Source: Arthrobacter pullicola | GTDB taxonomy: Bacteria; Actinomycetota; Actinomycetes; Actinomycetales; Micrococcaceae | Length of the DNA stretch: 64,000 nt | Assembly (NCBI RefSeq): GCF_014836875.1 | Contig: NZ_JACSQC010000004.1 | Location: forward strand, 62,001-126,000 | Reading direction: 5' to 3' | Shown: in pieces, positions 4,842 to 31,877 of the stretch | Layout of the letters: each line of letters opens with the position of its first letter | Position numbering within the stretch: the stretch's first letter is position 1 | Notes under the pieces: model-generated | What the model was told of the DNA's origin: nothing | Databases searched by the model: none | What the model saw: only the letters and a program-made list of their open reading frames with translations | Made by a program: the position numbers and the translations under genes

Positions 4842-4867
4842 GCAGCTGTGACATCAGGGACCACCAA

Positions 4868-6171: not shown

Positions 6172-6189
6172 GACCGCCAGGCACCACCC

Positions 6190-6208
6190 GCGTTCGTATT
6201 GTGAACGC
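6190..6208. promoter_or_regulatory. PcaR-like operator upstream of pcaH
   Basis: GCGTTC-N7-GAACGC inverted repeat in the 139-nt pobA-pcaH gap. Its core GTTCG-N6-GAAC is shared with the pcaF promoter and resembles the Pseudomonas PcaR operator GTTCGATAATCGCAC (recalled, not looked up). A possible -10, TAATGT, lies at 6233-6238, so the site would be just upstream of the promoter core. Confidence 0.55.
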
Positions 6209-6310
6209 ATGTCCACAAAGTGAACAAGCGTGTAATGTGGTACAAACCACTGGGATGCTTGGACGATGACGAGGACGCGTCGTGTGCGCATCCTTTTGAA
6301 AGGAAAAAAC

Positions 6311-7710: not shown

Positions 7711-7714
7711 TTCA

Positions 7715-9909: not shown

Positions 9910-9939
9910 ACCCGGCTACGTAAAAGAGAAAGCGATTCA

Positions 9940-10404: not shown

Positions 10405-10504
10405 CGCAGCTGCGGGCCACCCAGGACGGCTTCCGCCGTCCGTCTTAAACCGCCATGTCCGGAAAGGGCTGGCGGTTTCGGGCATTCTTAGATAAATTCG
10501 CATC

Positions 10505-10574
10505 TTGTACGCATGTTCGGTCCGCGAACATTTTTTGGAAGTTGTACGCAGTACGGAGGTTCGCGGATTCGTAC
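10505..10574. promoter_or_regulatory. pcaF promoter region with PcaR-like operator
   Basis: ATGTTCG-N5-CGAACAT (10513-10531) is a perfect inverted repeat with 7-bp arms, and its core GTTCG-N5-CGAAC is close to the Pseudomonas PcaR operator (recalled). It is flanked by two direct copies of TTGTACGCA (10505-10513 and 10542-10550, 37 nt apart) and followed by a third degenerate half-site, GTTCGCGGATTCGTAC (10559-10574). Several bound dimers are plausible. No clear -10 could be assigned. Confidence 0.6.
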
Positions 10575-10610
10575 GCGGATAGACCGCATGCAGCACCCAG
10601 CAAAGGAGCC

Positions 10611-11816: not shown

Positions 11817-11832
11817 CTTTCCAGGGAGAACC

Positions 11833-12516
11833 GTGCTGAATATTCTGCAGGACGTCGACGAAGCAGTCGCGCCGATCTATGACGGGGCCACCGTGATGAT
11901 CGGCGGCTTCGGCAAGGCCGGGCAGCCCGTCGAGCTGATTGAGGCCCTGCTGCGCCAGGGCGCCAAGAACCTGACCGTTGTGAACAACAACGCCGGCAAC
12001 GGTGAGGAAGGGCTCGCTGCGCTCATCGGTGCCGGCCGGGTCAGCAAGATCATCTGCTCCTTCCCGCGCCAGTCCGATTCCCACATCTTCGACGCCAAGT
12101 TCCGCGCCGGGGAAATCGAACTCGAACTGGTGCCGCAGGGCAACCTCGCCGAGCGGATCCGGGCTGCCGGCGCCGGAATCGGCGGTTTCTTCACGCCCAC
12201 CGCCTACGGAACTCCGCTGGCAGAGGGCAAGGAGACCCGCATGATCGACGGCCGCGGCTATGTCTTCGAGACGCCGATCCACGCCGATTTTGCCCTGGTG
12301 AAGGCGCTGAAGGCGGACCGGACCGGCAACCTTATCTACCGCAAGACCGCACGGAACTTTGGCCCGATCATGGCAGCCGCCGCGAAGAACGCCATTGTCC
12401 AGGTCCGCGAAATCGTCGAAACCGGGGACCTCGATCCGGAAATCATTGTGACCCCCGGGATCTACGTGAACTCCCTGGTCCAGGTATCCCAGGAGAAAGC
12501 ACCGGCAGCAGCATGA
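11833..12516 (+). CDS. pcaI: 3-oxoadipate CoA-transferase, subunit A
   Basis: Subunit A of the succinyl-CoA:3-oxoadipate CoA-transferase that activates 3-oxoadipate. Family features include GGFGKAGQP near residue 20 (CoA-binding glycine motif), VVNNNAGNGEEG, and PTAYGTPLAEGKE in the second half. The GTG start at 11833 follows CCAGGGAGA (11821-11829); the longer frame that begins inside pcaF is rejected. The product has 227 residues. The stop overlaps the pcaJ start (ATGA), as expected for stoichiometric subunits. Confidence 0.95.
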   Translation: MLNILQDVDEAVAPIYDGATVMIGGFGKAGQPVELIEALLRQGAKNLTVVNNNAGNGEEGLAALIGAGRVSKIICSFPRQSDSHIFDAKFRAGEIELELVPQGNLAERIRAAGAGIGGFFTPTAYGTPLAEGKETRMIDGRGYVFETPIHADFALVKALKADRTGNLIYRKTARNFGPIMAAAAKNAIVQVREIVETGDLDPEIIVTPGIYVNSLVQVSQEKAPAAA

Positions 12517-13193
12517 GCGAGAAGGCAGTGGACACCATCATGAGCGAAAAACTGGACCGCAACTCACTGGCAGAACTGGTTGCCCGGGACATTGCACCGG
12601 GCTCCTTCGTGAACCTGGGCATCGGCCAGCCGACCCTCGTCTCGAACTACCTCAAGCCCGAGCAGCACGTCACCCTGCACACCGAAAACGGCATGCTGGG
12701 CATGGGTCCGGAAGCCCAGGGCAGCGAAATCGACGGAGACCTGATTAACGCCGGCAAGATTCCGGTCACCGAACTGCCCGGCGCCTCCTACTTCCACCAC
12801 GCCGACTCCTTTGCGATCATGCGGGGCGGCCACCTGGATGTCTGCGTGCTCGGGGCCTTTCAGGTCTCAGCAACCGGCGACCTGGCGAACTGGCACACCG
12901 GGGCACCGGATGCCATCCCGGCCGTGGGCGGCGCCATGGACCTTGCCACCGGTGCCAAGGACGTCTATGTCATGATGTCCCTGTTCACCCGCGAGGGTGT
13001 CAGCAAGCTGGTTGCCGAGTGCTCCTACCCGCTCACCGGGGTGGGATGCGTCACGCGCGTCTACACTAATGAAGCGGTGTTCCTCCTGAAGGAGGACGGC
13101 GTCCATGTCCGCGAGACCTTCGGGATCAGTTTCGAGGAGCTTGCCGCCAAGATGGACGTTCCGCTGATCGCACCTTCCGCGGACGCAGCCTAG
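12513..13193 (+). CDS. pcaJ: 3-oxoadipate CoA-transferase, subunit B
   Basis: Catalytic subunit B of the CoA-transferase. The active-site Glu lies in TENGMLGMGP, preceded by the conserved GIGQPTLVSNYL. The product has 226 residues from the ATG that overlaps pcaI; a second in-frame ATG at 12540, with a nearly repeated N terminus (MSEK..., then MSEK...), could be the real start and would give about 217 residues. It lies 19 nt before pcaR. Together with PcaI it links ring cleavage to the PcaF thiolase encoded upstream. Confidence 0.95.
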   Translation: MSEKAVDTIMSEKLDRNSLAELVARDIAPGSFVNLGIGQPTLVSNYLKPEQHVTLHTENGMLGMGPEAQGSEIDGDLINAGKIPVTELPGASYFHHADSFAIMRGGHLDVCVLGAFQVSATGDLANWHTGAPDAIPAVGGAMDLATGAKDVYVMMSLFTREGVSKLVAECSYPLTGVGCVTRVYTNEAVFLLKEDGVHVRETFGISFEELAAKMDVPLIAPSADAA

Positions 13194-13212
13194 GACCTTC
13201 AATGGGGGATAA

Positions 13213-14004
13213 ATGAGCGAAACCATCGCGGCCAGCGACCAGTTTGTCCAGTCGCTGGCCCGCGGACTGTCGGTGATCCGGGCCTTCGACGCCGAACATG
13301 TGCAGATGACGCTCAGTGATGTCTCCCGCCGCACCGGACTGACCAGGGCTACGGCCCGGCGGTTCCTGCTTACGCTGGTGGAACTCGGTTACGTCCGCAC
13401 CGATGGGCGGAGCTTCGAGCTGACAGCACTTGTTCTCCAGCTTGGCTATTCCTACCTGGCCGGACAGACACTTCCCCAGCTGGCCCAGCCGCTGCTCGAG
13501 GACCTGTCCCGGGAAATCCACGAATCAACCTCGGCCTCCATCCTCGACGGCAACGAAATCGTCTATGTCGCCAGGATCCACACCCGGCGCCTGATGACCG
13601 TCGGCATAACTGTCGGGACGAGGTTCCCCGCCTACGCCACCTCCATGGGCCGGGTCCTGCTGGCCGGCCTTCCGGAGGAGCGGCTGTCCGCGTACCTCGC
13701 GGAGGTGGAGCTCAAACCGCTGACTGAACGGACCCTGACCACCGAGGCCGGGCTGCGCGCGGAGGTGCAGCGGGTCCGGGAACAGGGGTGGGCGGTTGTG
13801 GACCAGGAACTCGAACGGGGACTGCGTTCGGTGGCGGTCCCGATTTTCAGCCCGTCCGGCGAAGTGATTGCCGCGCTGAATACCTCGATGCAGGCCACGC
13901 TGGGACTCGATGGTCCTACACTGGAGGAAGCGGCGGCCTCCGTGCTGCCGCATCTGCAGGAGGCTTCACGGAAAATCACGCAGGCCCTGGCGGCGCGGAG
14001 CTAG
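13213..14004 (+). CDS. pcaR: IclR-family regulator PcaR
   Basis: IclR-family transcription factor with an N-terminal helix-turn-helix (about residues 10-75: SLARGLSVIRAFDAEHVQM, TGLTRATARRFL) and a ligand-binding domain (about 85-255, with TSMGRVLLAG and LRSVAVPIFSPSG). The start is an ATG behind a GGGGGAT purine run. Operon position behind pcaFIJ and resemblance to PcaR/PcaU regulators make protocatechuate or 3-oxoadipate control of the pca genes likely. The GTTC-N7-GAAC elements upstream of pcaH and pcaF are the obvious candidate targets. The effector cannot be read from sequence. Confidence 0.92.
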   Translation: MSETIAASDQFVQSLARGLSVIRAFDAEHVQMTLSDVSRRTGLTRATARRFLLTLVELGYVRTDGRSFELTALVLQLGYSYLAGQTLPQLAQPLLEDLSREIHESTSASILDGNEIVYVARIHTRRLMTVGITVGTRFPAYATSMGRVLLAGLPEERLSAYLAEVELKPLTERTLTTEAGLRAEVQRVREQGWAVVDQELERGLRSVAVPIFSPSGEVIAALNTSMQATLGLDGPTLEEAAASVLPHLQEASRKITQALAARS

Positions 14005-17659: not shown

Positions 17660-18850
17660 GTGGCGAAGGCAAAGTTCGAGCGGACTAAGCCGCACGTCAA
17701 CATCGGCACCATTGGTCACGTTGACCATGGAAAGACGACGTTGACCGCTGCCATTTCAAAGGTGCTTGCTGACAAGTACCCTGACCTGAACGAGCAGCGC
17801 GACTTCGCTGCTATCGACTCCGCGCCCGAAGAGCGCCAGCGCGGTATCACCATCAACATCTCGCACATCGAGTACCAGACCGAGAAGCGTCACTACGCAC
17901 ACGTTGACGCCCCCGGCCACGCTGACTACATCAAGAACATGATCACTGGTGCAGCTCAGATGGACGGCGCAATCCTCGTGGTTGCCGCTACTGACGGCCC
18001 GATGGCTCAGACCCGCGAGCACGTTCTGCTCGCCCGCCAGGTTGGTGTTCCCTACCTGCTGGTCGCACTGAACAAGTCCGACATGGTTGAGGACGAGGAA
18101 CTTCTCGACCTCGTGGAAATGGAAGTTCGCGAACTGCTGAGCTCCCAGGAGTTCGACGGCGACAACGCTCCCGTCGTTCGCGTTTCCGGCCTGAAGGCAC
18201 TGGAAGGCGACCCCAAGTGGGTTGCGTCCGTCGAAGAACTCATGGAAGCCGTTGACAACAACGTTCCGGACCCCGTTCGCGACAAGGACAAGCCGTTCCT
18301 GATGCCGATCGAGGATGTCTTCACCATCACCGGTCGTGGCACCGTTGTTACGGGCCGCGCCGAGCGCGGTACTCTCGCCATCAACTCCGAGGTCGAGATC
18401 GTCGGCATCCGTCCGGTCCAGAAGACCACGGTTACCGGTATCGAGATGTTCCACAAGCAGCTTGACGAAGCATGGGCCGGCGAGAACTGTGGCCTGCTGC
18501 TCCGCGGTATCAAGCGCGAAGACGTAGAGCGTGGCCAGGTTGTCGTCAAGCCGGGTTCCATCACCCCGCACACCGACTTCGAGGCCAACGTCTACATCCT
18601 GTCCAAGGATGAAGGCGGCCGCCACAACCCGTTCTACTCGAACTACCGCCCGCAGTTCTACTTCCGCACCACCGACGTCACGGGTGTTATCACCCTGCCC
18701 GAGGGTACGGAAATGGTTATGCCCGGTGACAACACCGAAATGACCGTTGAACTGATCCAGCCGATCGCAATGGAAGAAGGCCTCGGCTTCGCTATCCGCG
18801 AAGGCGGCCGCACCGTTGGATCCGGCCGCGTCACCAAGATCATCAAGTAA
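17660..18850 (+). CDS. tuf: Elongation factor Tu
   Basis: GTPase that delivers aminoacyl-tRNA to the ribosome, 396 residues. The GTG start at 17660 follows a strong AGGAGGAA. G1 is GHVDHGKTT (19-27 region), G3 DAPGHADY, and G4 NKSD at 138-141, the Ser variant usual in actinobacteria. Domains II and III are complete and end RVTKIIK. No second tuf copy is present. A strong terminator follows and is shared with the converging operon on the other strand. Confidence 0.98.
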
Positions 18851-18890: not shown

Positions 18891-18922
18891 GAAGGCCCCG
18901 CTGCTACGGCAGCGGGGCCTTC
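18891..18922. terminator. Shared terminator between tuf and the converging operon
   Basis: A perfect 14-bp stem (18891-18904 with 18909-18922) with a TACG loop, followed by TTGCGTTC on the plus strand. The minus-strand reductase stop codon lies inside the element (18904-18906), so its last codons form one arm and the hairpin can serve both converging transcripts. Confidence 0.85.
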
Positions 18923-21090
18923 TTGCGTTCGCGGAGGAGCCGGCTGGGATCGGCGCCCAAGGCGGCGGCCACGGCAGTACCGCACTCCAGGCCATCGGCG
19001 AAGGCACGGACGGCGTTGAGTCCGGCCGCGGTGGCAGCGCCGCCAATGACGGTGAACGGAATCCCTGCCGCCTCCAGCCCGTGCGCCAGTTCGGTGTTTT
19101 CCACCTGGCCGGCGGCCACGACGACGGCGTCAGCCGGGATGAGCAGGCCGCTGCCGTCCTGGCGGGTCACCAGCAGCCCCCGGTTGGTCAGGCGCCGGCA
19201 GGTGACGCCAGTGAGCATGCGCACCCCCGCGCTGCGCAGCACCTGGAGCGCGGCCCATCTGGTGGAAGGACCGATTCCGGCACCAATCCGGCCGCCCCGG
19301 CGCAGCAGGGTGATCTGTGCTCCGCCGCGGTCCGCGCCGGCGGCACCCGCCAGCTCCCGCGCGAAGCGTTCGGCCGACTGTTTTTCGGTCTCCGGGCGGC
19401 CCGGTTCCGGCTGGAGAAGCAGGTGGGCCAGGTCCACCGCGATCCCTCCTGCGCCCACGACGGCGATGCGGGGTACTGTGCGCAGCGCAGCCGGATCAGC
19501 GAACGCGTCCCGGTAATCCAGGACCGGAAGCTGGCCCTGCCCGGGCAGGGGCACGGTGCGGGGCAATACACCGGTGGCTACCACCACGTGGCTGAACCCG
19601 GCCAGATCGGCAGCCCGGACGCGCACGCCGGTCCGGATCCGGACACCCAGCCGCGGTAGTTCGTGGCTGAAGTACCTGACGTTCTCCAGGAAGTCCGCTT
19701 TGCCCGGCACCTTTCCGGCCAGCAGGAACTGCCCGCCGATGCCCGGCCCCGCCTCGAACAGGACCACTGGCACACCGTGGGAGGCGAGGGTTGCCGCGGC
19801 CTGGAGGCCTGCCGGTCCCGCGCCCGCCACCGCGACGGCGGCGTGTGCAGGAAGGCGTACACCACCGGGGCCTGGCCCGGTCCCGGGCAAGGGTGCCGGC
19901 CCCGCGCCGGGGACAGGACCCTTGCCGGCGGCCTGCACCTCGACGGGGTATGCCGCTTCCCGCCCGGCGCGTGGGTTAACCAGGCAGGAGACCGGTTCTG
20001 TGCCGAGCGACCGGTCGATGCAGGCTTCGTTGCAGGCAATACAGGTGTTCACCAGTTCCGGCCGTCCAGCGGCACTTTTAGCCACAATGCGCGGATCGGC
20101 GAGGAACGGCCGGGCCAGGGACACAAAATCAACCTGCCCGGCGGCCAGGGCGGCGTCCGCCTGGGCCAGGGAATTGATGCGGTTCGAACCGATGACCGGG
20201 ACAGGGCAGGCCTGCGCGGCCAGTGCCGCCCGGATCAGGGCGGCAACTGGAAGCCACTGGCCGTGCGGTACCAGGGCCTGGACAGTGGGGACCCGTGATT
20301 CATGCCAGCCGATTCCGACGTTGAGGGCGTCTGCTCCGGCCGCCGCGAGGGCTGCGGCGAGGCCGCGGTATTCTTCCGGGGAGCTGGAGCCTGGCATCAG
20401 ATCGTCTCCGGAGAGCCGGAATATCACGGGGAGTCCAGGACCGGCGGCGTCACGGACCGCGGCGAGCACCGCCAGGGGAAAGGCCCTGCGCCGGACGGCG
20501 TCCCCGCCCCACTCATCATCGCGCAGGTTGGTGGCCGCCGAGGCAAACTGATTCACCAGGTAGCCCTCGGAACCCATAATCTCCACAGCATCGAAGCCAA
20601 GCTCCCGCGCCAGCCGGGCGGCGCCGGCAAAATCCTCCAGCGTCCGCGCGATCTGCTCTTGGTTCATGGCCGCAGGCATGCTTCGGGAGAAGGCGGACCA
20701 GACGGGGGAGGGGGCCAGCGGCTGCAGGCCGAAGGTGTCTTCAAAGGCATACCGGCCGGCGTGGAAAAGCTGCAGCGCCAGCCGCCCACCGGCGTCGTGC
20801 ACTGCCTCCAGCGCCGCTCCGGCAGCGTCCAGAAATGCGCCGCCACCGCTCACCAGGTAGGTCCTGCCGCCGGAACCTTCCCGGCTGACGGCGGTGCCCC
20901 CGGTGACGATCAGGGCGGCGCCCCCGGCAGCCCGCTCCGCGTAGAACGCGCCCAGCGCCCGGGGATCGGCTTCGAAGTTCAGGTGCATGGACCCCATGAG
21001 TATCCGGTGCGGCAGGTCCAGCGTGCCGATGGAACCCGGGGCGAAGGCAGCCGGAAACATGCGTGCTCCGGGGCGGGGATCAGTAGTCAC
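18904..21090 (-). CDS. 2,4-dienoyl-CoA reductase, FadH type (PlmM/AnsM-like)
   Basis: Iron-sulfur flavoenzyme of 728 residues. An old-yellow-enzyme barrel (about 12-345) is followed by a [4Fe-4S] motif C350-x2-C353-x3-C357-x11-C369, the same spacing as E. coli FadH, then FAD and NAD(P) Rossmann domains (AGAGPAGLQAA near 420, AVVGAGGIAVDLAHL near 550). FadH catalytic residues are recognisable: Y177 in GSEGYLVNQF and H263 in GIGWHESR. An unusual Gly/Pro-rich linker (about 390-410) precedes the FAD domain. GTG start, 9 nt after the upstream dehydrogenase gene. As the third gene of the operon it probably reduces a ring or dienoyl double bond on a CoA thioester; the exact substrate is unknown. Fatty-acid dienoyl-CoA reduction is the alternative. 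Confidence 0.88.
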   Translation of the reverse strand: MTTDPRPGARMFPAAFAPGSIGTLDLPHRILMGSMHLNFEADPRALGAFYAERAAGGAALIVTGGTAVSREGSGGRTYLVSGGGAFLDAAGAALEAVHDAGGRLALQLFHAGRYAFEDTFGLQPLAPSPVWSAFSRSMPAAMNQEQIARTLEDFAGAARLARELGFDAVEIMGSEGYLVNQFASAATNLRDDEWGGDAVRRRAFPLAVLAAVRDAAGPGLPVIFRLSGDDLMPGSSSPEEYRGLAAALAAAGADALNVGIGWHESRVPTVQALVPHGQWLPVAALIRAALAAQACPVPVIGSNRINSLAQADAALAAGQVDFVSLARPFLADPRIVAKSAAGRPELVNTCIACNEACIDRSLGTEPVSCLVNPRAGREAAYPVEVQAAGKGPVPGAGPAPLPGTGPGPGGVRLPAHAAVAVAGAGPAGLQAAATLASHGVPVVLFEAGPGIGGQFLLAGKVPGKADFLENVRYFSHELPRLGVRIRTGVRVRAADLAGFSHVVVATGVLPRTVPLPGQGQLPVLDYRDAFADPAALRTVPRIAVVGAGGIAVDLAHLLLQPEPGRPETEKQSAERFARELAGAAGADRGGAQITLLRRGGRIGAGIGPSTRWAALQVLRSAGVRMLTGVTCRRLTNRGLLVTRQDGSGLLIPADAVVVAAGQVENTELAHGLEAAGIPFTVIGGAATAAGLNAVRAFADGLECGTAVAAALGADPSRLLRERKKAPLP

Positions 21091-21099
21091 GGGTTGCCG

Positions 21100-22284
21100 C
21101 TATCCGCCCGCACCGCCCAGGAGATCCCTGGCAATCACTGCCTTCTGGATCTCGTTGGTGCCTTCTTCGAACCGCTGGGCCCGGGCATCCCGGTAAACAC
21201 GTTCAATCGGCTGGGACTGCCAGTAACCGATGCCGCCATGCACCTGCAGTGCCTTGTCCGTGACCCGGGTCAGCATATCGACGGCGGTCAGCTTCGCCAT
21301 CGAGGACAGTGCAGGGGCCCCAGGGTCGGAATCCTGCCAGGCAGCAGCCGCCGTCAGCGTGAGCGCCCGGGCAGCGGCTATGTCGGCGGCATTTTCGGCC
21401 AGCATAAAGGCGATGGCCTGCCGGGAAGCCAGCGGTTTGCCGAAGGTGGTGCGTTCCAGGGCGTAGGTGACAGCCAGCTGCTGGGCGCGCTGGGCCAGCC
21501 CCACGCAGCTCATGGCCACGGAGATTCGGCTGGGGGTGAGGAATCCGCCCAGCGCCACCAGCAGGCCGTCTCCCTCCGCACCCAGCCGGTTCGCCACCGG
21601 AACCGGTGCGTTGGTGAATGTCAGCGAAGCATGGTCGGTGCCGCGCACTCCCATCGTGTGGGAAGTGTCTTCCACCACGGCCCCCGGCACGGTGCGGTCG
21701 ACCAGCAGCGCCACGGTCCCGTCCCGGCCGGTGCTGCCCTCCAGCCGCGCGAACAGGAGCCAATAGTCGCACCGGACACCAAAGGTGATCAGGTGCTTGC
21801 GGCCCGTGAGGAAATAGGTGTCCCCGTCCCGGCGGACTGTGGAGGAGATGTCCACGCCGGTGCCGTTGCCCGGTTCCGTCAGGGTGAACGCCACCGTCAG
21901 GTCTCCGGCCACGGCCGGGCGGATGACATCCCGGCGCTGGCGCTCGTCCGCGAACGGGTTCATGGCCCGCCAGGTCCCGTTCAGGACATGCACGATCATG
22001 CGGATCGAGGCGTGCGACCGGGAGAAGACTTCCATCAGCCCCATCCACTGCACAAAGCTCAGCCCGGCTCCGCCGAGCTCCCGCGGCGCGGCCAGGGATA
22101 GGAAACCTTCGGTCCGCAGCTGCTTCCACAGCGCGTCCGGCGTGGAACCCGCCGCCTCGATCTCCTCAGCCCAGGCCTCGCCGGGCCCCTCAACCCAGTC
22201 CGTGACCCTCTGGAGCAGGCTCTGGTACTCGGGCTCCGGGACGGAGCTGCCCCTCCCGTCCGCAGTAATGCCGCTGGTCCTCAC
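21100..22284 (-). CDS. Acyl-CoA dehydrogenase (PlmL/AnsL-like)
   Basis: FAD-dependent acyl-CoA dehydrogenase, 394 residues. Seen: the FAD/substrate motif AFTLTEPGNGTGVD (133-146), the dimer-contact ERTTFGKPLASRQAI (277-291), LQVHGGIGY (346-354) and catalytic Glu374 in FEEGTNEIQ. The start overlaps the end of the ligase-fusion gene by four bases, so the two are coupled. A roughly 35-residue N-terminal segment precedes the helical domain. Operon context with an EPSPS-like/ligase fusion and a dienoyl-CoA reductase suggests oxidation of an alicyclic carboxyl-CoA rather than a fatty acyl-CoA; this is an inference. The family call is firm. Confidence 0.9.
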   Translation of the reverse strand: MRTSGITADGRGSSVPEPEYQSLLQRVTDWVEGPGEAWAEEIEAAGSTPDALWKQLRTEGFLSLAAPRELGGAGLSFVQWMGLMEVFSRSHASIRMIVHVLNGTWRAMNPFADERQRRDVIRPAVAGDLTVAFTLTEPGNGTGVDISSTVRRDGDTYFLTGRKHLITFGVRCDYWLLFARLEGSTGRDGTVALLVDRTVPGAVVEDTSHTMGVRGTDHASLTFTNAPVPVANRLGAEGDGLLVALGGFLTPSRISVAMSCVGLAQRAQQLAVTYALERTTFGKPLASRQAIAFMLAENAADIAAARALTLTAAAAWQDSDPGAPALSSMAKLTAVDMLTRVTDKALQVHGGIGYWQSQPIERVYRDARAQRFEEGTNEIQKAVIARDLLGGAGG

Positions 22285-25200
22285 GCCTGGCTCCTGTCCT
22301 CGGCCGCTGGGTTTCCTGCCAGTTCACGCGCCCGTTCGCGCAGCAGGAACTTTTGTACTTTGCCGACGGGATTGCGGGGAATGGCCTGAACCAGTTCAAG
22401 ATGCTCGGGCCAATAGTGCTTCGATACCTGGAAACTGTCCAAGTAGCCGGTGAGTTCGGCAAGGGTCAGGTCCGCTCCGCCGGCGGGCACCACGAAAGCA
22501 CACGCCCGTTCGCCCAGCCGCGGATCGGGCATGGCAGCCAGCGCGACGTCTTCCACTCCAGGGTGGCGGTAGAGCAGCTGCTCAATCTCGGCCACGGGGA
22601 TTTTCTCGCCGCCGCGGTTGATGACATCCCGCACCCGGCCGGTAATGCGCAGGTACCCGGCGTCGTCGAGCGTGGCCAGGTCCCCGGTGCGGTACCAGCC
22701 GTCCTCCGTGAAGGCTTCCTTGGTCAGGTCCGGACGGTCCAGGTAGCCCTCGAACAGGGTGGGGCTCAGGAGTTCGAAGTTGCCCTCCATCCCCGGCGGC
22801 AGCAGCTGCCCCTCGTCGCTGACGATCCTGGCCCGGACTCCGGGGAGCAGCCGCCCATCAGTTCCCCAGACCAGGGCCGGATCGTCACCGGGGGAGGAGA
22901 CAGATCCCAGGCAGGTCTCCGTGGTGCCGAAGGCCCCGCAGACGGCGGTGTCCAGCACCCGGGTGGCGCGCTCCGCCAGGTGCCGCGGAACGGCCGCACC
23001 GGTATTAACGAAGATCCGCAGACTCGCAGGGGCAGCGGCTCCGGCTTCGACTGCCTTGACCAGGTCGGTGAGGAACGGGGTGGCAGCCTGCACGAACGTC
23101 CCCTTCCAGCCCCGGAGCATGGTCAGCGCCCGCTCAGGTTCCCAGACCGCCTGCAGGATCTGCGGCGCGCCCAGCACGAAGGACAGCCACATGCCGTAGA
23201 GGAATCCGGTTTGGTGGGCCAGCGGTGAGGGGATGAAGACGGCATCCGTGCTGTCCAGTTCCAGCTGGTGTGCTTCCATGGCCGCTGCCCGGCTTAGCGT
23301 GCTGTGCCGGTGGAGCACGCCTTTCGGCTCACCGGTGGTTCCGGAGGTGAACAGCAGCTGGGCGGGCGCATCGGGAGCCGGGGCAGCAGCGTCAATCAAC
23401 TCCCGGTCCACCTCGGTCTCGGCCAGTTCCTGCTCCCAGCCATGCCAGATGATGCCCCGCTCGCGGACCGGCAGCGGGGGAGCGGCTGCGCCGATGACCA
23501 CCACATGCCGGACCGCCAGGTCGTAGGCGGGGTCGGTGCCGGTGCCGGCGGCCAGGATGCCGGAGAGTTCCGCGGCATAGTGCCTGCCGCGGAACTCTTC
23601 GGGGACCACAACGACGGCGGCACGGGAGCGGTGGAGGGCAAACGCGACCTCGCGTTCGCGGAAGATCGGCATCAGGGGTGCAGCCACGGCGCCGATCCGC
23701 AGGACCGCCACGGTCAGGAGGACGAACTCGCTCCAGTTCGGCAATTGGAAGGCCACCCGGTCTCCGGGCCGGACCCCCAGGCTGAGCAGCATCGCCGCGA
23801 TCCGGTCTGCTCCGGCGTCCAGCTCCGCCCAGGTCAGGTGTCCGGTATCCCGCGGCCGCCCGTCGACGACGGCGGTATCCGCCGGGCGTTCCTTCGCCCA
23901 CCGGCGGACCCAGTCGGATCCGGTTACGGCGGAGCTTTCCTCGATGCCGTGGGCCGTGAGCTGGGCCGGACGGTGTCTGCGGAGCGCCTGCGGGGTTTTC
24001 CGGCGCAGGACACGCCCCTCCTCGACCTGCATGGACAATCCGAAGGAGTTCATTGCCTGGAGGAACTCCGGATAGGAGATGCGGTAGGCATTCGGGTAGG
24101 TCAGGGTGGACCGGCCCTCCGCTGCCGAGGCCGCGATGGCCAGGGACATCAGTACCCGGTGGTCGTTGAAGGAGGAAAGATCCGCGCCGGCCAGGTGTGC
24201 CGGGCCCCGGACACGCAGTTCATTGCCGGTGATCCGGACGTCCGCGCCCATGGAATTCAGCTGCAGCATCGCGGCGACCCGGTCCGATTCCTTCAGCCGC
24301 ACGTGCCCGACATTGCGGAACACGCTTTCACCGTCGGCGCAGGCCGCCATGACGGACAGGATCGGCAGCATGTCCGGAACAAGGCGGCAGTCGATGTCCG
24401 CCGGTCCCAGGCGAAGGCCGTCGTGCCGGACCCGGACCGCGTCCAGCCCGGCGTCGTAGGTCATCGGCAGGCCCATGTCCGCTGCAATGTCCAGGAAATC
24501 CGCTTCCGGATGGTCACTGCCGTCCGCCGTGACCGACTGCAGCCCGTGCAGCAGCAGATCGGATGGATGCAACGCGGCGGCGGCCAGTCCGAAGGCCGCG
24601 GAGCCTATGTCCGGGGGCATCCTCAGGTCTGTGGGCACGGCCTGCTGCCCCGGCGGGATTTCGAACCTGTGCCAGTCCTCGAGAACCTCGAGCTGCAGCC
24701 CGAACCGGCGCATCATCTGGACCGTCAGTTCCAGGTAGGTTCGTTCGTTCAGCGTTCCGTCCACCACCACGGTGGTTGGTCCCGAGGCGAACGGTGCCAG
24801 CAGCAGAAGCCCGGAAATCCACTGGGAGAGGGTCCCGGCTATGTGTACCTCTCCGCCGGCGGGTGCGTGGGCACGGACCCGGATCGGCGGACAATCGGTG
24901 GGGGAATCGACGTCGAGCCCCATTTGCCGCAGCGCCGCCAGGAGCGGGCCGATGGGCCGGCGCTGGAAGTACTTCTGGCCGGTGACTGTAACGTCCCGGG
25001 ATCCCAGAGCGGCGAGCCCGGCCATGAAGTAGAGGGTGGTGCCGGAGCTGCCGGCCGATATGCTCTCGCCGGCGGGAACGTAGGGGCCTCCGTGGACTAC
25101 GTAGGTCCCGCCGTCAACGTCTATCCGGGTGCCGAGCCGGCGCAGCATTGCCACCGTGTAATGAACATGGCGGGCATCGGTCAGCCCGGTGATGCGGCTG

Positions 25201-25313
25201 GTCCCGGGCGCGAGTGAGGCCAGGATCAACGCCCGGTGGGCGTGGTATTTGGAGTTGGGCACCTGTGCTTCTCCACAGATGCGCTGCTGTGTTCCCAGGA
25301 CCGAAAGATGCAT
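22281..25313 (-). CDS. EPSP-synthase-like / acyl-CoA ligase fusion (PlmJK-like)
   Basis: A 1010-residue two-domain protein. Residues 1 to about 435 are an EPSP-synthase-like domain: K22 and R27, D314, K341-E342 and D384-H385-R386 match catalytic or PEP-site residues of E. coli AroA. Others differ: S23 is Tyr, the N94 position is Ser, the R124 position is not Arg, and K411 is Arg. A basic linker (about 436-460) joins an ANL-type ligase (about 465-1005) with the P-loop FTSGTTGEPKG at 655-665, GWYRTGDLA, and a C-terminal NPVGKVQK lysine. First gene of a three-gene operon. The fusion resembles PlmJK of phoslactomycin biosynthesis (recalled), where it acts on shikimate toward cyclohexanecarboxyl-CoA. 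It is unlikely to be the housekeeping AroA. Domain calls are firm; the substrate is inferred. Confidence 0.88.
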   Translation of the reverse strand: MHLSVLGTQQRICGEAQVPNSKYHAHRALILASLAPGTSRITGLTDARHVHYTVAMLRRLGTRIDVDGGTYVVHGGPYVPAGESISAGSSGTTLYFMAGLAALGSRDVTVTGQKYFQRRPIGPLLAALRQMGLDVDSPTDCPPIRVRAHAPAGGEVHIAGTLSQWISGLLLLAPFASGPTTVVVDGTLNERTYLELTVQMMRRFGLQLEVLEDWHRFEIPPGQQAVPTDLRMPPDIGSAAFGLAAAALHPSDLLLHGLQSVTADGSDHPEADFLDIAADMGLPMTYDAGLDAVRVRHDGLRLGPADIDCRLVPDMLPILSVMAACADGESVFRNVGHVRLKESDRVAAMLQLNSMGADVRITGNELRVRGPAHLAGADLSSFNDHRVLMSLAIAASAAEGRSTLTYPNAYRISYPEFLQAMNSFGLSMQVEEGRVLRRKTPQALRRHRPAQLTAHGIEESSAVTGSDWVRRWAKERPADTAVVDGRPRDTGHLTWAELDAGADRIAAMLLSLGVRPGDRVAFQLPNWSEFVLLTVAVLRIGAVAAPLMPIFREREVAFALHRSRAAVVVVPEEFRGRHYAAELSGILAAGTGTDPAYDLAVRHVVVIGAAAPPLPVRERGIIWHGWEQELAETEVDRELIDAAAPAPDAPAQLLFTSGTTGEPKGVLHRHSTLSRAAAMEAHQLELDSTDAVFIPSPLAHQTGFLYGMWLSFVLGAPQILQAVWEPERALTMLRGWKGTFVQAATPFLTDLVKAVEAGAAAPASLRIFVNTGAAVPRHLAERATRVLDTAVCGAFGTTETCLGSVSSPGDDPALVWGTDGRLLPGVRARIVSDEGQLLPPGMEGNFELLSPTLFEGYLDRPDLTKEAFTEDGWYRTGDLATLDDAGYLRITGRVRDVINRGGEKIPVAEIEQLLYRHPGVEDVALAAMPDPRLGERACAFVVPAGGADLTLAELTGYLDSFQVSKHYWPEHLELVQAIPRNPVGKVQKFLLRERARELAGNPAAEDRSQA

Positions 25314-25556: not shown

Positions 25557-28500
25557 ATGGGGGAATTCATCTTATTTTTGGCTGTCGCAGCGGCCGGGTT
25601 CACGGTTGGGCGTTTTTCCACGCGGAAGGGCGCAGCCACCAGGAACGGAACCGGGTATGGCCCCAATGTTCCCCATCCCGCACAGATTTTCGAAGAGGGC
25701 TACCAGGCAGGCCTGGTGGATGCGGCCGCCGTCCACCGCAGCACTGCTGCAGCCGGGGCGGGTTACACCATGTCCCAAGGGCTCACCAAGTCTCAGGAGC
25801 ACGCCAGGTCTCAGGGTTATACCCAGCCGCAGGGGTACACCCAACCGCAGGGGTACACCCAACCACAGGGCAACGCCGGTCTTCACCCTGCGCCGCCTCA
25901 GTCAGGCCGGGCACCAGCTCCCGCTCCCGCGGCCTTCGTTTCCCAGCCGCCTGCTCCTCCGGTCTTCGAACGGCCGGCTGCACCGGCTCCCGCTCCGTCC
26001 GTTCCGGCTCCGCGGAATGTGCCTGCTCTGCCGAACGTCACTGCTTCGCGGAATGTGCCGGCTCCGCCGCCAACACGCCCGGCGCAGCCCCACAGCCCCC
26101 GGCCTCCGGAACCGCCCCGGGCCAGGACCGAAGCCGAGCTGGCGGCTGACAAACGGCGCCGGGACCTGCGCAACATCAACATCACCCTGTACTCCGCGAG
26201 CCTGCTGCTCGTGGCGGCGGCTGCGCTGTTTATTGGCATCTCGATCCCCGAAGAGGCACGGTTTGCCGGGATTGTGCTCCTGACTGGGCTGTTCTATTCC
26301 TCCGGTCTGGTGATCCATTCACGCCGGAAGAACCTGCGGCCCGCAGCCGTTGCGTTCACCGGCACCGGACTGGCATTGATACCGGTTGTTGGTCTGGCGC
26401 TCCACAATTTCATCCTCCACGATGCCGCTCTTGCCTGGCTGGTGACCTCACTGCTGGGAACCGCTGCCTTCGCCTACGCCGCTGCCCGGCTGGACAGCCG
26501 GGTTGTCACCTACCTGGCCCTGACTTTCCTGCTGTCTGCGGCGCTCGCCTCCGGGGCAGCGGTCCGCTCGGGAATCGTCTGGTACTTCGTCTTTACCGTT
26601 CTCCTCGCCACGCTGATGAGCCTTGCCGCGGTCCGCAGGCCAGGCTGGCTGAAGAACGTTTATCTCGACGCCTTTGTGCAGGCTCACCGGTACCTCGTCC
26701 CGGCCACCGCTGTGGCTGCTGTCCTGACCTCCCCGGACCTTGGACCGGGCTCCTTGGCTGTCCTGTTCCTGGCCATGGCCGGGTACTACGCCGTGCTGCT
26801 CTGGCAAGGCCCCGCAGCCCAGGTGCTGGTCCACAGCTACGGGGTCCGCGCCGGAGCCACCACCGGACTGGTGGCAGCAGCCCACTACTTCTTCGATTCA
26901 GTACCGGTGACGCTCTTCGCTGCGGCGGCATTGCTCGGTGTGCAGGCCGCAGGGCTCTTCGCCCTGGAGCGCCGGTATGCCGCAGCCGTCTCAACTGCCA
27001 CGCGCCAGGACGTTCCAGGCCGCGGTACTCCGGCAGATGCCCAGGCCGCTGCCGCTGGATCAGCTGCGGGTTTCATCCCACCGGCGGGCACCGGCGGCCC
27101 CGCACCTGCGTCCGGCGGCCCTGCGCCTGCGTCTACGCCCGGCGGCGGAACGTCTGGCGGCCCCGCACCTGCATCCGGCGGCCCCGCATCTGCATCCGCT
27201 GGATTCCGGTCCGCTGACCCAACGGCACCTTTGGCCGGCCGCTGGTTCCTCGCGGACACTGCCACTGTGCTGGGACTGCAGTTCCTGGCAGGCTTCGTTG
27301 CAGCTCTGGTGTTCGGCTACGACCTCCGGAGCGGGAACGGCAATCTGCCGGCCTACGCCGCTTCCGTGATCCTCATACATCTCACGCTCTGCTTTGCCGC
27401 CTGGAAGTTCCGGGGTGCTGCGGAGACCGCCGCAGCCGCTGCCCTGCTGCTCGGTGTCCTTCCCCGCTTCTTGAGCGGGCAGGCCCCGCTGTGGCCGCTG
27501 CTGCTGGTTCTGGGAATGCTCACCGGCTACCTGGCGCTGCGTGCCGTCCGCGCCGCCGGAGAGGAACAGAAATCATTTGTACTGGCGGCGCGCTGGGCGG
27601 GAATCGTGCTGGTCCCGCTCGTCCTCTACACCGTCCTGGAGACACGGGCCTCCGCGGAGGCATGGACCTGGACGCTGGCCGGCGGATTTGCGGCAGCCGC
27701 GGGGAACCAGGCCGTTTCTGCTCTGTTCCGGGCAGCGGCGCGGAAAGAGAAATTCCCGAACGGTGAACTTGCCTTCTCGATTAGTGCCGGCATTGTGCTG
27801 GCACTGTCCCTGCGGCTGGCGGAAGCACCCGCAGCCGTCCTGACCGTGACTGCTCTGTGGGTCCTGGTCAGCGTCAACGTCCTGTCCTCCCTGCTGCGCC
27901 GCCCGGAAGCAGCCGCAGCCGCACCTGCAGCCTTCGGCGCTGCGGCCCTGCTCGGAGCCGGCACTCTGGGGCTGACGGGATATGAACTGCTTACGGCAGC
28001 GGCGCTTGGCTATTGCGCCCTTCAGGTGCTGCGGTTCGCACCGCACTCGGTGCGCGCGTGGTACCTGGCGGCGGGTCAGGTCCTGCTCACACTGCTCACC
28101 GCGCTCGTGGCCGCCGATCTGGGCCTCAGCGTGCATGGAATCTTCATCGCCACAGCGCTTTCGCTGGCAGCACAGCATGTTTTGCGCATCGTGCTCCGCC
28201 GCCGGCTCACAGCTGTAGGCCTGGGAGAGGCGCTGAACCGGGGAACCCTGCTGGCGCAGGCAGTCCTTCCGCTGGCTTACTACGCGCTTCTCGGCATGGA
28301 AGCCGCTGCGGATACCGGAACAGTGCTGCTGCTCATTGCTGCCGGCAGCGCTGTCACCACACAGACAGTCTCGGCCTTCGCGCTCAAACGGACCGCGGCG
28401 CCCGGGCCGGTGCTCATCCGAGGTATAACCGAAGCCGCGGCTCTGGCGCTGCTGCTCATGCTGGGAATCCGCCTGGCCGATGCACCGGGGACGGCGTTGG

Positions 28501-30866
28501 CGCTCGCCGGACTGTGGGCGGCATTTGGAGCGAATGCACTGACTGCCGTCCTGCACCGCGGCACCCGGCTGGCCCTGGCAGCCCCGGCCGGGTTCGTTGC
28601 AGCCGCCCTGATCGGTGCAGGCCTGCTGGGAATGCGCGGGTACCAGCTCCTCTTTGCTGCCGCCCTTGCCTACTGCGTGGTGCTGGTCCGGGATCGGGGC
28701 AACGCGTTCCGCGGAGCGTATCTGGCGGGAGCGCAGGGGCTGGGCGCCCTCCTCGCAGGGCTGTTGGCCGCGGACCTGACGGGGCAGGTCAGCGGGTTCT
28801 TCGTTGCACTGGCAGCAGCCTTCACAGCAGCGCAGGTCCTGCGGACGGTGTTCCACCGGCAGCTGGAACCACTGGGTCTGGCGGAACCTTCCCGGTGGGG
28901 AGGGTTGCTGGTACTCGCGCTCCTTCCCGTCCTCTACCCGGCGGCGTCCGGTCCGGTGGATGCTGGAGTGCTTCTTTTCCTTATCCTGATGGCAGCCGCA
29001 ACCGCCTTGTTCACCCAGCTGTCCACCGCGGCCGGTATCCGGACGGGAACACCGCTGCCCAATGCTGCCGCCCTGACAGTCACCGCTGCCGTGGCGGTGC
29101 TGGCAGGGGTGTTTGCTGCCCGGTATGTGGAACACCCGCAGAGCGGCTGGACCCTGGCGCTGATCTGGGCCGCACTCGGCGTGAACGTGGCCACCTCGCT
29201 GCTGCTGCGTCCGGGCCGGTGGGAAGCAGCTGCGGCTGCGGGATTCGCGGCGGCCGCCCTGGCCGGAGCGGGTGTTTTGGGGCTGCGGGGCTATGAACTC
29301 CTGCTCCTGCTGGCGGCGGTCTACGGCGGATACCTCGTGACGCGGCGCAACCAGCCGAACCGTGGACACTACCTGCTGGGTGTGCAGGTTCTGGCTGCCT
29401 TCCTGGCCGGTGTTATCGCCGCAGATGCCGGAGCCGGAGTGCACGGGGTGTTTGCTGCCGGGGCGTCGGTCCTGGCCCTGGCCCAGGGGGCGCGCGCCGG
29501 TCTGGAGCCCCGGCTGGCGGGCCTCGGCTCCGCCGCCGCTGCCCAATGGACAACGATGGCTGCGCTGGCACTCTGCCCGGTTTTCTACACGGGGTACGCA
29601 TGGGTGACCGGGCCGGGGGCACAGCGGGATGTTATGGCACTGCTGCTGGTGCTGCTCCTGGCTGTGGCAGCAGCCGGATTCGCCCGCTGGCGGGCAGCCG
29701 CTTTCCTCTACCCGGCGGTCTACGCCCTCGGAACCCTGCCCCTGCTCCTGACCGCGCTGGTGCGCTTCAGCGGCGGGGGTGTGCTGCCGGGCCCGGTCCT
29801 GGGGGTCCCGGCGGCCGGTTTCCTGCTGATAGCCCTCGGAGCCGCAGCCCTCACCGGCGAAGCACGGCCAGCGGTTGCCCGGCCGGTCCGTACCGCACTC
29901 CTCAGCGCTGCCGTGGCTTACCCGGCAGCTGCGCTGCTCATGGCAACCGCGAAAGACAGCCTGATGCTGACGGCGCTCTCACTCGCCGCGCTCGCAGCTG
30001 TCTTCCTGACCGTTTCCTACACGCGGGCGCGGATTTGGCTGGCGGCCGGTGTGCCGCCGCTGCTCTGCCTGGCGGCGCTGGCCGCGGTCGGGGAATTCCA
30101 GCGCTCCCTTCTGAGCACTCCGATGCCTCACGGCTACGAATACTTGTGGCCCGTCTGGACCGCTGCACTCCTGCTTCAGGCGCTGCGTATGTTCATTTCC
30201 CTGGCTGACGGTGTGCCCGGGACGCAGCTGCGCTCCCGGATTATGGGTGTGGCTTCTGCCTTCGTCCTGGTTGCCGGGGCTGTACCGGCGATGGGGGAGT
30301 GGAACCACGCCGGCCTCGCCGGATCTCTGACGCTGCTGGCCGCCCTTGGGCTCGCCGTCCGGGAAGCCCCGGCCGAGCTGCGGGAAGCGGCGGCGCAGGC
30401 AGCTGTTCTCCCGGCCGCCCTCGCCGTTCAGCGGATGGGCTGGTACTTCTTCCCCGTCGATGCCTTCTGGTCGGTGCAGTACTGGGCGGTCATCCTGGCC
30501 GGTCTGGCCGCGTGGGAGTATCTGCGTAAGCGGGACTCCCGGGGTACGGTCCTGCTCGGCGCCTCGGCTGTGATTCTTTCCGGCAGCGGCCTGACAACCA
30601 TCGGGTCCGGAGGCGCCGGCGATCAGCTGTGGGCACTGGTGGCGCACGCGGGGCTGCTCGCCTTCGGCCTCCTCGCCAGCCGCAGGCTGTTCACCATCTG
30701 GGGCGCCGCGGGCGTCGCACTGGCGGTGCTCTGGTACCTGCGCGGGTACACTTTCCTGCTCCTGGCACTCCTGGCGGCCGGATTGATTGTCCTCGCCATC
30801 TGGCGGCTGACACGTGTCCGAAGTGAACCGGAGGAAGCCCGCGAAAAGGAAGAGATCCGGTCCTGA
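25557..30866 (+). CDS. Giant polytopic membrane protein with internal repeats
   Basis: A 1769-residue predicted integral membrane protein of unknown function; I do not recognise the family. Residues 1-17 form a membrane segment. About 40-205 is a low-complexity Gln/Pro/Ala region containing tandem YTQPQG units, then a basic stretch (DKRRRDLRNINI), then dozens of hydrophobic helices. A second low-complexity insert rich in GGPAPAS lies at about 500-545. Between about 740 and 1385 a module of roughly 218 residues occurs three times, marked by GAGTLGLTGYELL, GAGLLGMRGYQLL and GAGVLGLRGYELL. The short C terminus is charged. ATG start at 25557. Transport, polymer export or envelope scaffolding are all possible; nothing catalytic was seen. 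Confidence 0.8.
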   Translation: MGEFILFLAVAAAGFTVGRFSTRKGAATRNGTGYGPNVPHPAQIFEEGYQAGLVDAAAVHRSTAAAGAGYTMSQGLTKSQEHARSQGYTQPQGYTQPQGYTQPQGNAGLHPAPPQSGRAPAPAPAAFVSQPPAPPVFERPAAPAPAPSVPAPRNVPALPNVTASRNVPAPPPTRPAQPHSPRPPEPPRARTEAELAADKRRRDLRNINITLYSASLLLVAAAALFIGISIPEEARFAGIVLLTGLFYSSGLVIHSRRKNLRPAAVAFTGTGLALIPVVGLALHNFILHDAALAWLVTSLLGTAAFAYAAARLDSRVVTYLALTFLLSAALASGAAVRSGIVWYFVFTVLLATLMSLAAVRRPGWLKNVYLDAFVQAHRYLVPATAVAAVLTSPDLGPGSLAVLFLAMAGYYAVLLWQGPAAQVLVHSYGVRAGATTGLVAAAHYFFDSVPVTLFAAAALLGVQAAGLFALERRYAAAVSTATRQDVPGRGTPADAQAAAAGSAAGFIPPAGTGGPAPASGGPAPASTPGGGTSGGPAPASGGPASASAGFRSADPTAPLAGRWFLADTATVLGLQFLAGFVAALVFGYDLRSGNGNLPAYAASVILIHLTLCFAAWKFRGAAETAAAAALLLGVLPRFLSGQAPLWPLLLVLGMLTGYLALRAVRAAGEEQKSFVLAARWAGIVLVPLVLYTVLETRASAEAWTWTLAGGFAAAAGNQAVSALFRAAARKEKFPNGELAFSISAGIVLALSLRLAEAPAAVLTVTALWVLVSVNVLSSLLRRPEAAAAAPAAFGAAALLGAGTLGLTGYELLTAAALGYCALQVLRFAPHSVRAWYLAAGQVLLTLLTALVAADLGLSVHGIFIATALSLAAQHVLRIVLRRRLTAVGLGEALNRGTLLAQAVLPLAYYALLGMEAAADTGTVLLLIAAGSAVTTQTVSAFALKRTAAPGPVLIRGITEAAALALLLMLGIRLADAPGTALALAGLWAAFGANALTAVLHRGTRLALAAPAGFVAAALIGAGLLGMRGYQLLFAAALAYCVVLVRDRGNAFRGAYLAGAQGLGALLAGLLAADLTGQVSGFFVALAAAFTAAQVLRTVFHRQLEPLGLAEPSRWGGLLVLALLPVLYPAASGPVDAGVLLFLILMAAATALFTQLSTAAGIRTGTPLPNAAALTVTAAVAVLAGVFAARYVEHPQSGWTLALIWAALGVNVATSLLLRPGRWEAAAAAGFAAAALAGAGVLGLRGYELLLLLAAVYGGYLVTRRNQPNRGHYLLGVQVLAAFLAGVIAADAGAGVHGVFAAGASVLALAQGARAGLEPRLAGLGSAAAAQWTTMAALALCPVFYTGYAWVTGPGAQRDVMALLLVLLLAVAAAGFARWRAAAFLYPAVYALGTLPLLLTALVRFSGGGVLPGPVLGVPAAGFLLIALGAAALTGEARPAVARPVRTALLSAAVAYPAAALLMATAKDSLMLTALSLAALAAVFLTVSYTRARIWLAAGVPPLLCLAALAAVGEFQRSLLSTPMPHGYEYLWPVWTAALLLQALRMFISLADGVPGTQLRSRIMGVASAFVLVAGAVPAMGEWNHAGLAGSLTLLAALGLAVREAPAELREAAAQAAVLPAALAVQRMGWYFFPVDAFWSVQYWAVILAGLAAWEYLRKRDSRGTVLLGASAVILSGSGLTTIGSGGAGDQLWALVAHAGLLAFGLLASRRLFTIWGAAGVALAVLWYLRGYTFLLLALLAAGLIVLAIWRLTRVRSEPEEAREKEEIRS
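25812..25865 (+). repeat. 18-nt tandem coding repeat
   Basis: Three adjacent 18-nt units (25812, 25830, 25848), the last two nearly identical, encode QGYTQP-type hexapeptides in the N-terminal linker of the giant membrane protein. A degenerate fourth unit follows at 25866. Confidence 0.85.
27770..29700 (+). repeat. Three tandem protein modules of about 218 residues
   Basis: Diverged internal repeats in the giant membrane protein. Equivalent Leu/Ala-Gly motifs start at codons 798, 1018 and 1235, and each copy also carries an AADLGLSVHG/AADLTGQVSG/AADAGAGVHG motif about 70 residues later. Boundaries are approximate. The DNA is diverged, so this is an old duplication. Confidence 0.7.
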
Positions 30867-31030: not shown

Positions 31031-31568
31031 CCGGAGAATCCGGTACGGTGCTCTCCTGCCAGGTTCGTCCCGCCGGGCCGGTTGTTTTCCGGCCGCGCGG
31101 GTGCCTGGTCTAGAATGAAGAAAACAGCGCGCTGTGCCGACGGGTATCCCGCAGGCATGCGCGGTCATCTGCTGGCCGTCAGGCTGGGAACCCGGAGCTG
31201 ATTCGCGTTCCCAGGCCCGATCTGGCAGACTAGAGAAGTTGTTCAAGCGCTTTTGTGCCCGCACGCGCTGAGCAGGCCGGTTAAACCCGGCACTGTGTGC
31301 GTGTTGAGATTGCGTCCCGGTCAGGATAATGCCTGACGCAGGGTCCGGTCCTTCAGGGGAAAAGCCCATATATGACCCGCCCCCATTCTTGTACGGGTGT
31401 TGCCAGTTTCGAATCTGCGACACGCCCGAGCGCGGGGGTCGGAGCCTCGGCAGGTTGAGGAACCCGGAGCTTCCGGATTCAGCTTGTTGGAGGAGCGCCG
31501 GGGCCAACATGGCCGCCAGGGGCAAAAACTGTACAGAGAGCAATACTCGAAGAAAGAGGCACGACGCC
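31031..31568 (+). other. S10 operon leader region
   Basis: 538 nt without a supported gene. Possible promoter elements are TAGAAT (31111-31116) and TTGAGA (31304-31309) 17 nt before TAATGC (31327-31332). Structures include CTGGGAAC/GTTCCCAG (31184-31191 with 31207-31214) and GTCAGG/CCTGAC (31320-31325 with 31332-31337). It ends with AAAGAGG (31553-31559) before rpsJ. The length suggests a regulatory leader, but no known leader class was recognised. Confidence 0.4.
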
Positions 31569-31877
31569 ATGGCGGGACAAAAAATCCGCATCCGGCTGAA
31601 GTCGTATGACCACGAGGTCATTGACGTATCAGCACGGAAGATCGTTGAGACGGTCACGCGTGCAGGCGCAACGGTAGTAGGCCCCGTGCCGCTGCCCACG
31701 GAAAAGAACGTGTACTGCGTTATCCGTTCGCCGCACAAGTACAAGGACAGCCGCGAGCACTTTGAAATGCGCACGCACAAGCGTCTGATCGACATCATTG
31801 ACCCCACGCCTAAGGCCGTTGACTCGCTGATGCGTCTTGACCTGCCTGCAGACGTGAACATCGAAATCAAGCTGTAG
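31569..31877 (+). CDS. rpsJ: 30S ribosomal protein S10
   Basis: S10 (NusE), a 30S head protein that also acts in antitermination. 102 residues from the ATG at 31569, beginning [19 protein letters not shown], with AAAGAGG 9 nt upstream. An in-frame extension to 31329 lies in the leader and is rejected. First gene of the S10 operon; rplC follows after 16 nt. Confidence 0.98.

Follow-up and report, generated by a model that had tools for sequence, protein, structure and literature searches.

Why does a bacterial chromosome carry, between the housekeeping genes tuf and rpsJ, what looks like the starter-unit cassette of an antibiotic pathway? The question is raised by a 64,000-nucleotide stretch of the 3.62-Mb genome of Arthrobacter pullicola (positions 62,001 to 126,000 of contig NZ_JACSQC010000004.1; below, the window), in which three genes resemble those that convert shikimate to cyclohexanecarboxyl-CoA (CHC-CoA), a pathway familiar until now chiefly from the supply of antibiotic starters. 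A first-pass annotation had assigned them to this family and had stated that no polyketide cluster is present; no ketosynthase match was found in the window, in agreement with that. On balance, the sequences favour a stand-alone CHC-CoA pathway, split over two loci, that would most likely prime omega-cyclohexyl fatty acids. What is new here is a CHC-CoA cassette outside antibiotic clusters, divided between two loci and with an associated ketosynthase-ligase pair.

In the open reading frame (ORF) call, three minus-strand ORFs fall exactly on positions 18904-25313, the interval first given for them. The largest, JK (22281..25313, minus strand, 1010 aa), is a fusion in which Pfam EPSP_synthase covers residues 9-420 and AMP-binding residues 470-985. 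Its N-terminal, EPSPS-like part, J, spans residues ~1-430 (about 24024-25313, minus strand), and its C-terminal acyl-CoA ligase part, K, residues ~465-1000 (about 22311-23921, minus strand). JK overlaps by 4 bp with L (21100..22284, minus strand, 394 aa), a member of the acyl-CoA dehydrogenase family (Pfam Acyl-CoA_dh_1/M/N), and L is spaced by 9 bp from M (18904..21090, minus strand, 728 aa), a FadH-type 2,4-dienoyl-CoA reductase (Pfam Oxidored_FMN and Pyr_redox). ORFs and Pfam matches agree with the description of three coupled genes in the first-pass annotation: the window carries J and K fused, with L and M adjoining JK. M matches the E. coli 2,4-dienoyl-CoA reductase 1ps9 with 439 bits across both halves, and the motifs GWHE, CxxCxxxC and SEGY are present in 34/34 M rows. 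The genes found at the position of L in other loci are 53-95% identical to it.

A search of other Arthrobacter genomes, proposed with the first description, found a full-length JK fusion in 20 of the 29 genomes of the window genus (g1). Across the family, full-length JK is present in 33/395 genomes: 20 of g1, three of the sister genus g7, and four, four and two of the further genera g29, g25 and g3 (the two 395-genome samples searched for JK and for the ketosynthase KS2, described below, are taken as one set). The other 14 of the 47 passing family genomes have only ligases that are 38-43% identical. In a Streptomyces-like genus (that of G416, inferred as Streptomyces) 12/392 genomes pass; ten have JK, in 11 copies, at 60-63% identity to the window fusion, and the rest are a broken J-only piece and a 42% identical ligase. 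A family of the same order, f4, which we take for Microbacteriaceae, gave 31/269 passing genomes, with J and K in 30 of them, over 13 of 85 genera, and a ligase only in one. An even draw over the phylum returned 5/396 genomes at E<=1e-130, a threshold that would miss weaker copies: the source genome itself and four genomes of a distant family, f18, in which J and K are encoded as separate genes. This recurrence across genus, family, Streptomyces-like genus and f4 indicates that the window fusion is not a chance product, and the family assignment made at first, in kind (JK fusion, L, M) and in order, is matched in the Streptomyces-like copies.

The cassette has a mixed history. In the J tree that includes f4, g3 clusters with f4 genera and three f4 genera cluster with Micrococcaceae, so that there has been transfer between families beside vertical descent; the J trees were thinned, with 12 of the 20 g1 rows in the one without f4 and six of 20 in the one with it, and the partial J of G878 was excluded from both. 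The whole fusion was found in none of the 53 matching plasmid records: plasmid J matches reach at most 33% identity (31 records, mostly annotated aroA or unannotated) and plasmid KS2 matches at most 53% (five records). A scan of named genomes returned seven loci, namely five from Arthrobacter, near relatives of the source (A. luteolus, A. gallicola, A. koreensis, A. gandavensis and A. sp. Edens01), one weak ligase match and one contig with J only. The latter (L043, JASHVV010000405.1, 6.9 kb), from a metagenome-assembled genome labelled Gammaproteobacteria, has, within 1087-3670, a lone J-type gene, 59% identical, directly after a ketosynthase gene that is 34% identical to KS2, and no K, L or M match.

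One component is missing from the window operon. A short-chain dehydrogenase/reductase (SDR) of ~275 aa, ChcA-like, separates L from M in three g7 loci, two g3 loci and 8 of the 11 Streptomyces-like copies, the remaining copies being two with JK-L-ChcA without M and one with JK and an M fragment. No ChcA-type SDR was found between L and M of the window operon, and the gap between the L and M matches is 11-74 bp in the eight window-genus genomes viewed, compared with 841-847 bp in the three g7 loci. The ChcA ortholog of the genome lies on another contig (C1:22488-23318), is 65% identical to the ChcA of G798, a Streptomyces-like genome (the next-best SDR reaches 38%), and is the first gene of what we call locus B, being followed by an acyl ligase, LIG2 (C1:23335-25053), and a FabF-type ketosynthase, KS2 (C1:25067-26302). 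The nearest solved relative of ChcA is the enoyl-ACP reductase FabL, and the motif Y-x6-K is present in 68/68 rows. Within the genus, every one of the 20 genomes with JK retains the ChcA ortholog. The g1 locus-B genes fall, in the ChcA tree, inside the Micrococcaceae clade (97/96), beside those of g7, g25, g29 and g5, which looks like relocation rather than new import. The pathway content first described therefore holds for the window genes and covers only part of the set, as ChcA, LIG2 and KS2 are encoded at the distant locus.

That KS2 and LIG2 belong to the pathway is suggested by their linkage with the cassette. The gene order in G798 is JK-L-ChcA-M-KS2-LIG2; KS2 without LIG2 is joined to the cassette in G1146 and G969 and directly follows M in the f4 genomes G1178 and G1260, and in the f4 genomes G1323, G1262 and G1196 a same-strand LIG2 precedes J by 1.4-2.3 kb (20 of the 30 f4 loci were viewed). 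Ten other genomes of the family, and G893, have KS2 and LIG2 as a pair that is separate from JK or occurs in its absence. In the window genus, JK is present in 20/29 genomes and both ChcA and KS2 in 21/29, these being the same 20 plus G013, and the other eight genomes have none of them. Among the 395 family genomes, 28 have JK and KS2, five JK only, three KS2 only and 359 neither; by Fisher's test, which ignores ancestry, p is 1.6e-34 across the family and 2e-6 within the genus. In a further set of 42 genomes, KS2 was found at 60-64% identity in four of the ten JK-bearing Streptomyces-like genomes, in none of the 28 without JK and in none of the four of f18; G443 and three f18 genomes have only FabF-like matches at 42-43%.

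The sequence of KS2 is that of a FabF relative with an altered pocket. The triad C163/H303/H340 is kept in 30/30 rows, and KS2 scores 491.3 bits against the fabF equivalog TIGR03150, just under the cut-off of 493.75, and passes the broader subfamily NF005589 (481.6 vs 387). It has A107, V108 and L202 where 13 FabF-type rows have G, I (L in one) and F, at positions of the acyl pocket.

The J domain departs from AroA. J reaches the curated NCBIfam aroA cut-off (about 311-314.3 vs 287.25 bits), and J-type genes are for that reason probably named 3-phosphoshikimate 1-carboxyvinyltransferase in databases. The source genome also carries a separate AroA, and an AroA match distinct from J was present in 13/13 genomes examined (in two pieces on two contigs in G491), 11 of which also have a J-type match, partial in G878. 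J forms its own clade (support 100/100). In E. coli numbering, S23Y, N26H, R100Y and S169L are found in 50/50 J rows, the window's own included, and in 70/70 when 20 f4 rows are added, although selecting rows for >40% identity to the query, as done here, works in favour of uniform residues; K411 is replaced in 49/49 J rows covering the position (69/69 with the f4 rows). AroA rows keep S23, N26, R100, S169 and K411 in 12/12, and J retains K22, R27, Q171, D313, E341, R344, H385 and R386 in the rows covering them. By clade and by changed residues, J is not an AroA. The changes fit a shikimate-type substrate and an altered chemistry with no transfer of phosphoenolpyruvate (PEP), as has reportedly been proposed for AnsJ.

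In the pathway that we propose, J would act on shikimate or shikimate-3-phosphate, eliminating water (or phosphate) with no addition of PEP, K would form the CoA thioester, L and M would act on ring double bonds, and the ChcA-type SDR from the distant locus B would perform the alpha,beta-enoyl reductions. These individual reactions are assigned by analogy with the chemistry established by the groups of Floss and Reynolds. From studies of ansatrienin, phoslactomycin and asukamycin, such a gene set should give CHC-CoA, the formation of which is supported here by homology. CHC-CoA would then most likely prime the endogenous fatty acid synthase, where KS2 would elongate or prime as an enzyme adapted to cyclohexyl groups, and the product would be omega-cyclohexyl fatty acids, perhaps minor or conditional. 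As no polyketide synthase was found and the same genomes keep a FabF-type ketosynthase, the simplest use is to prime fatty acids. The sequences themselves show the genes and their homology, the split over two loci, the residue changes and the co-occurrence, whereas the lipid end-product and the roles of KS2 and LIG2 are inferred.

Published work offers parallels for this proposal. Excerpts of the respective papers report that the asukamycin producer turns CHC-CoA into omega-cyclohexyl fatty acids, 3.1% of the total (PMC4147253), and that a CHC-CoA cassette is functional in S. avermitilis (PMC4581413). According to a part of PMC10011130, cyclohexyl-C17:0 may occur in Herbiconiux (Microbacteriaceae); the title of a reference in PMC5118839 reports omega-cyclohexyl fatty acids in Curtobacterium, and extracts of PMC3035248 and PMC10562698 name Alicyclobacillus as a former of such acids. 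An extract of PMC8742107 ties omega-cyclohexyl tridecanoic acid to bacteria other than Arthrobacter.

Several results weigh against this proposal. Its main weakness is that a literature search found no published cyclohexyl fatty acid analysis for Arthrobacter. Described Arthrobacter species are dominated by anteiso-C15:0. At the thresholds used, KS2 is absent from the three g7 genomes, the two of g3, 6 of the 10 JK-bearing Streptomyces-like genomes and all four of f18; it is not essential to the cassette. Nor does KS2 depend on the cassette, since it occurs without JK (E<=1e-100) in G013 and G032 (both as ChcA-LIG2-KS2) and in G045 (as LIG2-KS2). Only 2 of the 20 f4 loci have KS2 and three have LIG2, in stretches beyond which the genomes were not searched for KS2. 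The eight genomes of the genus that have none of JK, ChcA and KS2, together with G013, fall into a single clade in a tree of FabF (89/89, under the starred level), so that the co-loss within the genus amounts to about one or two events. The ORF list around KS2 shows no gene recognisable as an acyl carrier protein (ACP), a thioesterase or FabH. Finally, M is missing next to the cassette in the loci of g25, g29 and f18 and in two of the Streptomyces-like genus, a negative that covers the viewed loci.

The alternative that survives best, which we hold possible and well short of probable, is that CHC-CoA or a related alicyclic acyl-CoA starts a small non-lipid product, such as an acylated metabolite or a short polyketide, by means of KS2, LIG2 and borrowed parts of the fatty acid synthase. 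If fatty acids were simply to be primed, a dedicated ketosynthase and a second ligase would be unusual equipment; other ketosynthases are found near the cassette and KS2 of G969, and in G968 ketosynthase III-like and ACP-sized ORFs, seen by eye in the ORF list, stand directly upstream of JK. However, no further biosynthetic genes were recognised in the ORF lists around either locus in the genus. No associated polyketide synthase was found at either locus, and no ketosynthase other than KS2 in the 60 kb around locus B or in 19 family, 20 f4 and four f18 loci (stretches of ~13-21 kb). Over ~60 kb, other ketosynthase matches lie near 7 of 10 Streptomyces-like copies and near none of three (the first copy of G1146, G798 and G1075); the eleventh copy (G893), on a 9.8-kb contig, was left out of this count. 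Moreover, KS2 does not lie near those copies that have ORFs of >1200 aa and other ketosynthases (G1144, G1137, G1119, G1141 and the second copy of G1146), and at E<=1e-90 it is nowhere in G1144, G1137, G1119 or G1141, with G969 as the exception to this pattern.

A catabolic role, in which cyclohexanecarboxylate, quinate or shikimate would be taken up and degraded with the help of the ligase, dehydrogenase and reductase, is improbable. It draws on the best NCBIfam match of K, the cyclohexanecarboxylate-CoA ligase TIGR03208, though at 466 bits under a cut-off of 792, on an aromatic-degradation (pob/pca) cluster ~5 kb from the cassette, and on the phenylacetate-type ORFs that stand, by eye, beside KS2-LIG2 in a g29 genome. 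Yet the ORF list has no transporter or regulator gene within the window operon, and L stays far below the cut-offs of the cyclohexanecarboxyl-CoA dehydrogenase TIGR03207 (127.7 bits, cut-off 575) and of NF043006 (188.3 bits, cut-off 650). To our knowledge, an EPSPS-like step and a ketosynthase fit no degradation pathway.

Slightly less probable still is that, ChcA having left the operon, the cassette ends at cyclohexene- or cyclohexadiene-carboxyl-CoA, a partly reduced product of the kind that the first-pass annotation had put beside an alicyclic starter. No ChcA stands between L and M in the eight genus genomes whose stretch covered the site, as this would predict, but all 20 JK-bearing genomes of the genus have the ortholog, within the Micrococcaceae ChcA clade. 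With ChcA at the distant locus, the fully reduced product has become the likelier of the two. Last, the idea that the fusion is merely a second AroA joined to an unrelated ligase, which the aroA score of J would allow, was rejected as very improbable, given the separate AroA, the clade of J and the loss of residues invariant in the 12 AroA rows.

We return to the stand-alone pathway and to its place in the chromosome. The cassette is inserted between tuf, with fusA, on one side and rpsJ/rplC/rplD on the other (the window ribosomal-protein genes were identified by eye and via their match in relatives), as the first-pass annotation had it; this placement is seen in all eight genus genomes with longer stretches viewed (the window, L038-L042, L062 and L063). 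Downstream of the operon is tuf (17660..18850, plus strand), 96-100% identical to the flank gene in relatives whose stretch extends to tuf. Upstream comes an accessory, large membrane-type ORF of 1769 aa (25557..30866, plus strand), and then rpsJ-rplC-rplD, beginning with an ORF (31329..31877, plus strand) that has rpsJ at its 3' end, at the start of the S10 operon; its rpsJ part is 99-100% identical in relatives. The 1769-aa ORF has no Pfam or NCBIfam match at E<=0.001; it is matched in L038, in L040-L042 and partly in L063, with no match in L039 and L062. In the g7 loci (n=3) the cassette adjoins rpsJ in all, with tuf in view in one. Both pathway loci are above their surroundings in GC content, at 69.1% vs 64.7% (18904-25313) and 68.5% vs 64.8% (C1:22488-26302). 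Searching the window for Rfam families, at the gathering threshold, and for tRNA genes gave no matches.

The f4 family has a site of its own: 11 of the 20 complete cassettes viewed are flanked by ffh and rpsP-rimM, and a twelfth has rpsP-rimM and then runs into the end of its contig. These loci (L244-L250, L252-L255 and L259) carry a complete JK-L-ChcA-M, with trmD mostly visible; L255 is the one that stops before ffh.

Other metabolic genes were observed near these loci. The pob/pca cluster of the window (4041-14004) lies between an rpoC-like ORF, identified by eye, and rpsG-fusA-tuf, and is a second metabolic insert of the same region; it comprises 4-hydroxybenzoate 3-monooxygenase, PcaB-like, PcaD-like, PcaC, PcaF-like thiolase and PcaJ proteins and a PcaR-type regulator. 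As judged from the starts of the ORFs, the g25 and g29 cassettes (L059, L060 and L064-L066) are near FadB-type 3-hydroxyacyl-CoA dehydrogenase-like ORFs, with a thiolase-like ORF in L066, and in the g29 locus L214 (3864-11700) KS2-LIG2 stands among phenylacetate-like ORFs (thioesterase, PaaK-like ligase, TetR and PaaZ-like).

Taken more broadly, there is about an even chance that ordinary actinobacteria commonly possess the CHC-CoA route as a lipid module retained over long times. It would occupy conserved sites, tuf-rpsJ in two genera of the Micrococcaceae type and ffh-rpsP in a further family, would often be accompanied by a ketosynthase and a second ligase of its own, and would serve cyclohexyl-ended lipids or another CHC-primed molecule. 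The loci offer actinobacterial omega-cyclohexyl fatty acids a genetic basis that can be tested, and they suggest that a lipid module may be shared with, or have been borrowed by, the antibiotic clusters. The sets of ChcA, KS2 and LIG2 are candidate parts for making CHC-primed products without feeding, and J is a case of a gene that passes the aroA cut-off and is probably not an EPSP synthase.

Compared with known systems, the closest likeness is to the antibiotic CHC-CoA cassettes, ansJ-M with chcA, and plmJK-L-M, which have the same JK, L, ChcA and M homologues in the same order, the comparison being made via the Streptomyces-like relatives. The Arthrobacter set differs from them in a window in which no polyketide synthase was found, in the tuf-rpsJ site, and in a chcA that lies in a distant operon with KS2 and LIG2. 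With Alicyclobacillus, Curtobacterium and Herbiconiux the likeness is in the proposed end-product. The asukamycin producer, according to the excerpt of PMC4147253, feeds CHC-CoA into fatty acids, the very use proposed here, but does so alongside an antibiotic pathway, whereas no antibiotic cluster was found at either of our loci. J belongs to the fold family of AroA and keeps some of its active-site residues (K22, R27, Q171, E341, R344, H385 and R386), and differs from it by S23Y, N26H, R100Y, S169L, the loss of K411 and a separate clade. In the same manner, KS2 shares the C-H-H triad and its overall sequence with FabF (KASII), while differing at residues 107, 108 and 202 and being 42% identical to the FabF of its own genome.

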